Part shown: positions 44,127 to 64,000 of the stretch, piece by piece
Numbering within the stretch: the first letter of the stretch is position 1
Layout: each line of letters begins with the position of its first letter
DNA from: Rhodobacteraceae bacterium IMCC1335
GTDB lineage: Bacteria; Pseudomonadota; Alphaproteobacteria; Rhodobacterales; Rhodobacteraceae
Assembly (NCBI GenBank): GCA_039640495.1
Contig: CP046864.1
Span: 1-64,000, forward strand
DNA: 64,000 nt
Reading direction: 5' to 3'
The notes under the pieces: model-generated
What the model was told of the DNA's origin: nothing
Seen by the model: only the letters and a program-made list of their open reading frames with translations
Database searches by the model: none
Made by a program: the position numbers and the translations under genes

Positions 44127-44144
44127 TGTAAATGATACTGGACA
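44127..44144. promoter_or_regulatory. PpsR/CrtJ box 2 in the crtE-crtD control region
   Basis: TGT-AAATGATACTGG-ACA, second perfect copy, 24 bases from the first. Together they can co-repress crtEF on one strand and crtDC on the other. Their presence also argues against a crtD start at 44132. Confidence 0.75.
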
Positions 44145-44173
44145 GTTTGGCATTCAGAGTCAACAATTGCTTT

Positions 44174-45766
44174 ATGAACCTGTCAGTGATTTCAAAACGG
44201 ACCAAAGGCGAAGTGATCGTAATTGGCGCTGGCATTGCCGGTTTGGCCGCTTCGCTGCGCTTGGCGCATCAGGGATTTTCGGTCACTGTCCTTGAACGCC
44301 ATGCGGGCCCGGGTGGTAAAATGCGTGGTTTATCAAGCGTGGCAGGGCCGATAGATGCCGGCCCTACCGTTTTGACCATGCGGCCAGTCTTCGAAGATCT
44401 GTTTCGCTCTGTCGGAGAGCAAATTGAAGATCATCTGACATTGGTTCGACAAAAAATTCTGGCGCGACATTGGTGGCCAGATGGCAGTTCGCTCGATTTA
44501 TTTGATGATTATGAAGCCTCTCAAGAGGCCATCTATGAATTTGCGGGGCTGAAAGCTTTTGGCGAATTTCAAGAATTTTTTAAGCGCACGCAACGGCTCT
44601 TTACGGCTTTTGACGCCCCAATGATGCGCGCGGCGCAGCCCAACCAAGCCGAAATTATAAAATCGGTTATGAAAAGGCCCTCTTTGATAAGCGATATGGC
44701 CCCTTGGCACAGCCTATCAAAAATGCTTGAGAAGCAATTCAGCGATCCGCGCTTGGCGCAATTATTTGGCCGCTATGCGACCTATGTTGGCGGATCGCCT
44801 TATGCCGCCCCCAGCTTGCTATCTTTGATTTGGCAGGCCGAAGCAAATGGCGTTTGGGCGGTTAAGGGCGGCATGCATAAACTGGCCAAGAAGCTGGTAG
44901 AGCTGAGCGAAAACCGCAGCGCCATTTTTCATTATAACAGCCATGTCAGCCGGATTTTGACAGAGAATGAAAAAGTGATCGGCGTGACGTTGGAGAATGG
45001 CGAAAACATCAGCGCGGATGCGGTTGTGTTTAATGGCGATCCCCGCGCATTGGCCACGGGCGCGATGGGCCCAGACTGCCAGAAAATTGCCCCTCAAACG
45101 CTGAAAGACAAGCGCAGCTTTTCGGCCCGCGTCTGGAGCTTTGCGGCGCAGGTAACCGGCCCTGATCTGATTCATCACAACGTATTCTTTGGGCAGAATT
45201 CAAAATCTGAATTTGACGATCTTGCCGAAGGTCAAATGCCCGTTGATCCAACGATCTACATCTGCGCCCAAGATCGTGGCCAAAACGCCCCCTATCCCAA
45301 AATAGAGCGCTTTGAGATCATTCTAAATGCGGCCCCTGTTTACGGGGCACAAACGCTGGAGAAGGAGTTTGAAACATGTCGGACACGCACTTTCGACACG
45401 CTGGGCAGGTTCGGGCTGGCCTTCTCGCCGCTTCCAAAAGAAGAGGCGCTGACAACACCAGCGGATTTCGCCAGCATGTTCCCAGCCTCGGACGGTTCGC
45501 TTTACGGGCAGAGCCCACATGGTCTGACGGCAGCCTTCCGGAGGCCAAGAGCACGAACGCAGATTCAGGGTCTGTATCTGGCCGGGGGCGGAGCCCATCC
45601 GGGGGCGGGGGTGCCGATGGCAACCCTCTCCGCGCGGCACGCGGCCGAGGCGATCATCAAAGACCTAACTTCAACATCATCGTCCCCCCAAACGGATATG
45701 CATGGTGGTATATCGACGGAGTCGATCGAACTGCGCAGCGCGCGGTTTCAGTCATCGGATTCATAG
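44174..45766 (+). CDS. crtD: Methoxyneurosporene / hydroxyneurosporene 3,4-desaturase
   Basis: FAD-dependent carotenoid 3,4-desaturase of the phytoene-desaturase family. The cofactor-binding motif VIVIGAGIAGLAASLRLA lies near residue 12, and the C-terminal family motif LYLAGGGAHPGAGVPMATLS near 475. The ATG at 44174 is used because the earlier in-frame ATG at 44132 falls inside a PpsR box. The last 90 or so bases overlap crtC in another frame, giving a tail (SSPQTDMHGGISTES) that reflects the overlap. Confidence 0.94.
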   Translation: MNLSVISKRTKGEVIVIGAGIAGLAASLRLAHQGFSVTVLERHAGPGGKMRGLSSVAGPIDAGPTVLTMRPVFEDLFRSVGEQIEDHLTLVRQKILARHWWPDGSSLDLFDDYEASQEAIYEFAGLKAFGEFQEFFKRTQRLFTAFDAPMMRAAQPNQAEIIKSVMKRPSLISDMAPWHSLSKMLEKQFSDPRLAQLFGRYATYVGGSPYAAPSLLSLIWQAEANGVWAVKGGMHKLAKKLVELSENRSAIFHYNSHVSRILTENEKVIGVTLENGENISADAVVFNGDPRALATGAMGPDCQKIAPQTLKDKRSFSARVWSFAAQVTGPDLIHHNVFFGQNSKSEFDDLAEGQMPVDPTIYICAQDRGQNAPYPKIERFEIILNAAPVYGAQTLEKEFETCRTRTFDTLGRFGLAFSPLPKEEALTTPADFASMFPASDGSLYGQSPHGLTAAFRRPRARTQIQGLYLAGGGAHPGAGVPMATLSARHAAEAIIKDLTSTSSSPQTDMHGGISTESIELRSARFQSSDS

Positions 45767-46592
45767 GCTCGGTTTTTTCGCCTTGGTATCGTTGGTCGGG
45801 TCGTAAAGACCCTGAAAACAACGTCTGCATCAATGTCGCGACCTATGGCCCAGGCGGGCGCTTCACGATGACCGACCGAGGGCGCAGTGCTTTGCGGCAA
45901 AGCGAAGATCGTTTCGAAGTGGGACCTTCAAGCCTGCGCTGGGAAGCGGGCAAATTAATCATCGAGATTGATGAAATCAGTGGTCCACCGATTATTTCAC
46001 GCGTGCGCGGACGCATCACGCTCACGCCCAGCGCGATCACCGATCAAGAATTGGCGCTCACACGCGATGGCGCGCATATATGGCGGCCATTTGCGCCCAC
46101 CGCGCATATTAAAGTCGACCTGAACGGAGAGGGTTGGCAATGGGATGGCCATGGATATTTCGATGCCAATTTCGGCACGCGCGCCTTGGAAGAAGATTTT
46201 TCATATTGGACATGGGGCCGGTTTCCAACCCAGCAAGGCAGCACCTGCTTTTACGATGCCACCCGTTTGGATGGCAGCGTGTTAGAGCAAGCGGTCACGT
46301 TTAACCGCGAGGGCGCGCTGGTCGACACGCCGATGCCCCCAAAGCGCGCTTGCCGCGCAGCCTTTGGGCGGTTGCCCGCGAAACCCGTGCAGATGCAGGA
46401 TACCAGCCCAAACAAGTCAAAAACATGCTGGATGCTCCATTTTACAGCCGCTCAGCGGTGAAAACCAAAATCAACGGCATGGAAACGGTGGGCGTGCATG
46501 AGGCTTTGGATTTGGTTCGCTTCCGAAGTCCGCTGATCAAACCTATGTTGGCGGTGCGGGTTCCCCGCCGCGCTAATTGGAAATTTGATTAA
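45676..46592 (+). CDS. crtC: Carotenoid 1,2-hydratase CrtC, broken by a one-base frame shift
   Basis: Hydrates the end of neurosporene in the spheroidene route. Family sequence is unmistakable: YAWWYIDG, FIGSVFSPWYRWSGR, GYFDANFGTRALEEDFSYWTW. The frame is open to about 46340, then the conserved C-terminus (LPRSLWAVARETRADAG to VRVPRRANWKFD) continues in the -1 frame to 46592. Adding one C to the C5 run at 46336-46340 restores a protein of about 305 residues. No ATG, GTG or TTG exists in frame at the expected N-terminus inside crtD; the start given is only a placeholder ATC. Deletion mutation, sequencing error or programmed shift are all possible. Confidence 0.8.

Positions 46593-61341: not shown

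Positions 61342-64000
<2,659 letters not shown>

Follow-up and report, generated by a model that had tools for sequence, protein, structure and literature searches.

Does the break in the crtC reading frame of Rhodobacteraceae bacterium IMCC1335, which coincides with a −1 slippery heptamer, reflect regulated expression, a mutation or an error of the assembly? The genome consists of one contig of 3.74 Mb, and the window analysed here is the stretch from position 1 to 64,000 of that contig (64,000 nt; the crtC and crtD features given below with coordinates lie on the + strand). As it stands, crtC (45376..46461) is a 361-aa ORF with its ATG inside crtD, residues 1-323 being CrtC and residues 324-361 an alien tail, so that the upstream frame runs through 38 alien residues after the break to a stop at 46461. 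The break lies at a run of five C (46336..46340), the window letters at 46333-46347 being ATG CCC CCA AAG CGC, and the CrtC continuation occupies the −1 frame (46344..46592), which supplies the C-terminal 82 residues of the intact 405-aa form. The NCBIfam model NF045922 (278 positions) was covered from 1 to 204 by the upstream frame (368.3 bits) and from 201 to 278 by the −1 frame from 46350 (135.6 bits); neither piece reaches the curated cut-off of 400 bits, and the intact protein P0001 scores 516.9. The original prediction had placed CrtC homology up to the C5 run and then in the −1 frame, a truncated CrtC with an alien tail if the frame is left unshifted, and C CCA AAG in the upstream frame at 46338..46344; letters, coordinates and model matches agree with this throughout, and the position and phase of the heptamer were correct. 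Only one crtC match was found across the genome, and the setting is an ordinary photosynthesis cluster, with a prenyl diphosphate synthase in the crtE position, CrtD, TspO, CrtB, a CrtI-type desaturase, CrtA, BchI, BchD and BchO as neighbours.

The four closest genomes found (G061, locus L019; G062, L020; SB2, also reached as L004, L021 and G063; G002, L003) all have six C and an intact 405-aa frame at this site, with codons CCC CCC AAA, CCC AAA in phase and no shift required. This is the comparison by which the original prediction had proposed that its regulatory reading might fall, and it went against that reading. Run length did not vary among these four genomes, and C5 was seen in IMCC1335 only. 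The closest, MAG BS307-5m-G16 (G061), is 98.7% identical over the whole 64 kb with seven indels, an identity that by sequence comparison places the two in the same species. Two of the seven indels fall inside ORFs of at least 200 aa, namely the crtC loss and one at 62935, where G061 is one base short within a 347-aa ORF and both G002 and SB2 match the window. The single-base gains relative to G061 at 62935, 311348 and 338171 are common to G002 and SB2 and are therefore changes on the G061 side. This cluster, at ~95% identity over 20 kb, also stands on the L020 contig (PBJN01000002.1), whose Porticoccaceae label makes a mislabelled or contaminated bin probable.

A wider set of 96 family loci was assembled from genome matches and the best 80 of 117 from a wider search, some genomes being reached twice. 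One script covered 89 of them (85 full length, three running off a contig end and one, L088, short), and the other seven, in the opposite orientation, were all full length, giving a full-length frame at 92 of 93 evaluable loci. The exception, L088 (MAG REDSEA-S34_B6), is damaged in another way: a net deletion of ~127 nt takes out the place matching the window's break. Among the 85 full-length loci the longest C run at the site ranged from two to seven, never with a break.

The slippery heptamer is a by-product of the base loss. Removal of any one C from CCC CCC AAA G yields CCC CCA AAG, and an in-frame heptamer always results. A −1 slip there would regain the intact protein, as had been predicted, and this too follows from the CCC CCC AAA G codons of the relatives; the heptamer, its position and the restored protein are thus one fact and not three, because all follow from the loss of a single C. 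Such motifs are also frequent: a 464-kb stretch of G002 held 1075 in-frame X XXY YYZ heptamers within 347 of 400 mechanical ORFs, CCCAAAG being in frame six times, and deleting one base would create a new in-frame heptamer at 55 of the 568 runs of at least six in this ORF set. Heptamers being common and arising from base loss, it says little for a programmed signal that the break falls on one. Breaks of this kind easily seem programmed because, where an in-frame YYY follows a longer run of X, dropping one X is enough to make the heptamer.

Of the features expected of a programmed −1 signal, a heptamer in frame at the break junction was found. Break and motif are not kept in the relatives, in which the evaluable family loci, with the single exception above, form one open frame; CCCAAAG was in frame at one of the 85 loci (L045, unbroken) and another heptamer at seven of the 85. 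The hairpin of the original prediction (46339..46367) exists as a stem, and the C6 relative L019 forms a hairpin too, but as a meaningful signal it fell away: its energy did not differ from that of shuffled sequences (z −0.20; 77 of 200 shuffles fold equally well), and the heptamer itself makes up its 5' arm. Stretches further downstream folded with z 0.04 and 0.91, and across these three folds no stimulatory structure starting 5-8 nt downstream of the heptamer was found. By eye there was no SD-like site 6-17 nt upstream of the heptamer, the nearest being GAGGG 24 nt upstream.

In the protein collection the best match of the 361-aa ORF was the intact cluster P0001 (405 aa, 305 members), and the window's own CrtC protein was absent among the 120 matches listed. 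The alien tail (residues 320-361) gave two candidates and no match at E<=10 in this collection, against 553 of 554 matching for the same stretch of P0001 used as a control; the collection is clustered at 90% and holds representatives only, and C5 members could hide inside clusters. The CrtC proteins tried had no match in Pfam, and a PDB search by sequence returned two matches at chance level. The P0001 model resembles AttH (2ich; Foldseek E 7.7e-10), and the CrtC fold is predicted to be common to AttH, the pericyclases Fsa2, Phm7 and CghA, and 25-phosphosteroid lyase. The short CrtC would be without 82 residues, which include 22 columns invariant among 42 homologues and the four final strands of the predicted fold, and it would likely be inactive. 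If C5 is real, the predicted carotenoid is neurosporene, which made up 100% of the carotenoid when crtC was deleted in Rhodobacter sphaeroides (PMC4331045).

The start of crtC proved of wider consequence than its break. The upstream gene crtD (1-hydroxycarotenoid 3,4-desaturase; 44132..45766) is an intact ORF whose final ~390 nt also hold, in a different frame, the beginning of crtC (45376-45766), and a predicted ribosome-binding site with the crtC start codon (AAGGAG, 8-nt spacer, ATG; 45362..45378) lies inside it. At 88 of 90 loci, the window included, a start codon (86 ATG, 2 GTG) stands 94-100 codons ahead of the conserved P of PNF, the remaining two loci running off a contig end, and an SD-like stretch of at least four bases lay within 22 nt before the start at 83 of the 88. 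Among the seven loci in the opposite orientation, L007 has TTG and L011 GTG at the same place, while L018 lacks a start there; at some loci a further start occurs closer to the core, for example an ATG at −38 in L077. The crtD codon that gives the first base of the crtC start ends in A at 79 loci and in G at 2 (81 loci), compared with 14.3% of upstream crtD codons ending in A and none of 388 columns reaching 90% A. The crtC frame had no stops in 7459 codons of the overlap, and the same frame upstream had 185-285 stops in each of four bins of ~7340-7455 codons. At fourfold columns of crtD the third-base entropy was 1.66 bits upstream (128 columns), falling to 1.34 where the genes overlap (44) and to 0.35 across the CrtC core (9). 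In these alignments the family conserves the crtD-internal start, the SD-like site and the stop-free frame, and within the overlap the synonymous sites of crtD are under constraint.

CrtC residues 1-82 were modelled with pLDDT under 50 and are likely disordered, and strands 108-117 and 123-131 are part of the predicted fold. NF045922 starts at residue 126 of the 405-aa CrtC, and seven database proteins (P0137, P0139, P0151, P0153, P0195, P0218, P0226) start between residues 116 and 165 of that form; on the model, all of these would be without one or more predicted strands. The overlap matters more than the break because the starting points of a curated CrtC model and of several database entries lie within the folded enzyme. 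No report of the overlap was found in the literature searched, which included the accessible parts of PMC4331045 and PMC10604819, older subscription papers lying outside the search.

To place the crtC loss in context, 464 kb of the genome were compared with G002 and SB2 (~94.5% identity; 344 and 329 kb aligned). At places where G002 and SB2 concur, IMCC1335 shows 10 isolated single-base losses and 2 gains in ORFs of at least 120 aa (about 330 kb), a set that excludes events less than 45 nt from an ORF end and clustered ones (16 losses and 22 gains in ORFs), as well as a 738-aa G002 ORF that has three losses here and is absent from the SB2 comparison. By our reading three of the ten losses were set aside (one ORF looks spurious, and two losses are close to the 5' end, upstream of where the gene probably starts); one of the two gains is part of a 22-base insertion and the other is close to the beginning of a 798-aa ORF. 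The seven remaining losses fall in well-formed genes, namely crtC and, at G000 positions 97970, 212973, 312667, 316255, 332225 and 339012 respectively, dnaQ, glpK, an alpha/beta hydrolase gene, a soxA-like gene, a sensor kinase gene and a LacI-type regulator gene. G061 has the missing base in all seven (104 kb unselected plus ~25 kb chosen around known breaks), with the frames of all seven open over the aligned length. At the sites of the seven losses G002 has a run of six or seven in four cases and a shorter run in three. Four of the losses fall in one stretch of 26.3 kb (P = 0.044, random points). Isolated non-coding losses (30) and gains (23) were nearer even than coding ones, and G002 and SB2 (0.56% divergence) differed by one private isolated coding event. 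Set against divergence, the loss count gave P = 0.0003 at an expectation of 1.25 and P = 0.09 at 3.75, both expectations being our own choice. Frame-broken ORFs numbered 23 of 302 for G002 and 19 of 292 for SB2 placed onto IMCC1335, 19 of 314 and 16 of 300 for IMCC1335 onto G002 and SB2, and 6 of 336 and 3 of 338 for G002 onto SB2 and the reverse.

The hydrolase gene also carries a nonsense substitution (TAT to TAA at codon 58), and on the branch of IMCC1335 it shows four replacement changes and the stop against two silent changes. The soxA-like gene shows ten replacement against nine silent changes, and both genes are raised over the background on this branch (112 replacement against 396 silent, 91 ORFs). 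No further sign of decay was seen in crtC, dnaQ, glpK, the LacI-type gene or the sensor kinase gene, changes being too few to judge in crtC (one replacement, no silent), dnaQ (0 and 2) and the kinase (1 and 1). At least one of the seven genes, the hydrolase, is by these substitutions truly decaying. The nonsense change, the raised replacements in the hydrolase and soxA-like genes and the clustering of losses indicate that the strain truly decays in places, and error as the cause of all seven losses was rejected on the same three observations. Both mutS (879-aa open frame) and mutL (649 aa) appear whole; if the loss in dnaQ, which encodes the proofreading subunit, is real, a raised mutation rate is possible despite these open frames.

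For crtC itself we favour, with modest confidence, a residual homopolymer error of the assembly and not a programmed frameshift. One C would have been dropped from the homopolymer (C6 to C5) in this genome alone among the relatives examined, which would turn the in-frame CCC CCC AAA G into C CCA AAG and give the site its slippery look, and the living strain would have an intact crtC. In the accessible text of PMC12007338, false homopolymer deletions dominate the indel errors of a long-read assembly, and the intact C6 frames of the four closest relatives and of nearly all family loci, the unmatched tail, the further one-base losses, four of them at longer runs, and the five broken genes with no further sign of decay all point the same way. 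Error accords less well with the hydrolase and soxA-like substitutions, with clustering not expected of errors, with a loss count modestly over the divergence expectation (by one choice of expectation more than by the other), with the presence among the seven of dnaQ, whose real loss could raise the mutation rate, and with a protein collection of representatives in which C5 forms could be hidden. Because at least one of the seven genes is truly decaying, error is only narrowly ahead of fresh mutation for crtC. That C5 is real, a recent strain-specific one-base deletion through replication slippage that likely inactivates CrtC and would leave neurosporene-type carotenoids, has a chance somewhat short of even. 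Such a deletion would be young, since a 98.7% identical genome is without it; the rest of crtC is undecayed, and the deletion would fit a genome truly losing at least one other gene; the conserved columns and strands in the lost residues, the single copy of crtC and the Rhodobacter sphaeroides deletion (PMC4331045, as far as its accessible text goes) bear on its effect. The error-like pattern, five of seven losses in genes without other decay and four of seven at runs of six or seven, counts against it.

The original prediction had offered mutation, homopolymer error and regulated or phase-variable expression; the first two stand, and control of either kind is unsupported by C6 relatives with intact frames, no usual stimulator and no variation in run length. 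Programmed −1 ribosomal frameshifting at C CCA AAG, setting the ratio of short to full-length CrtC, would draw on the in-frame heptamer at the break and on the 54% efficiency with the IS3 pseudoknot that makes C_CC.A_AA.G the most efficient such motif in E. coli (accessible text of PMC4066793), but the relatives need no shift, the stem overlaps the heptamer and no upstream SD-like site was seen, and in Roseovarius gahaiensis (L045) CCCAAAG stands in frame in an unbroken crtC, the motif not being tied to a break; we regard it as very improbable. Equally hard to credit is phase-variable switching through the length of the C run, for which a homopolymer in a coding region is available: all four closest genomes have C6 and the C5 tail was unseen among cluster representatives. 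Six bases is also short for a contingency tract. An improbable variant, less so than these two, is that a real C5 rescues itself, the slip-built heptamer letting ribosomes regain the frame to give a leaky crtC and a mixed carotenoid pool; if so, genes with in-frame XXX-XXX-YYY would be buffered against their own commonest deletions. The analysis keeps an ordinary one-base loss from being taken for a recoding event and flags the assembly for checking. No report of carotenoid crtC breaks was found by title among the 15 of 114 matches listed for crtC and frameshift literature.

The gene dnaX is an example of programmed −1 frameshifting. Compared with frameshifting of the dnaX or IS911 type (PMC4066793, accessible part), crtC shares an X XXY YYZ heptamer of a proficient kind, but has no conserved break, conserved in-phase motif or detected stimulator. 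Compensatory ('corrective') frameshifting, as described in the accessible portion of a review (PMC5009743), is alike in that an indel leaves a motif allowing some recovery of the frame; it differs in that crtC offers no evidence of recovery happening or of the indel being real. From the long-read homopolymer deletion errors described in the available text of PMC12007338, the present set departs in that three of the seven losses lie in shorter G002 runs and at least one in a decaying gene, and it resembles them in consisting of single-base run losses that split genes intact in relatives.
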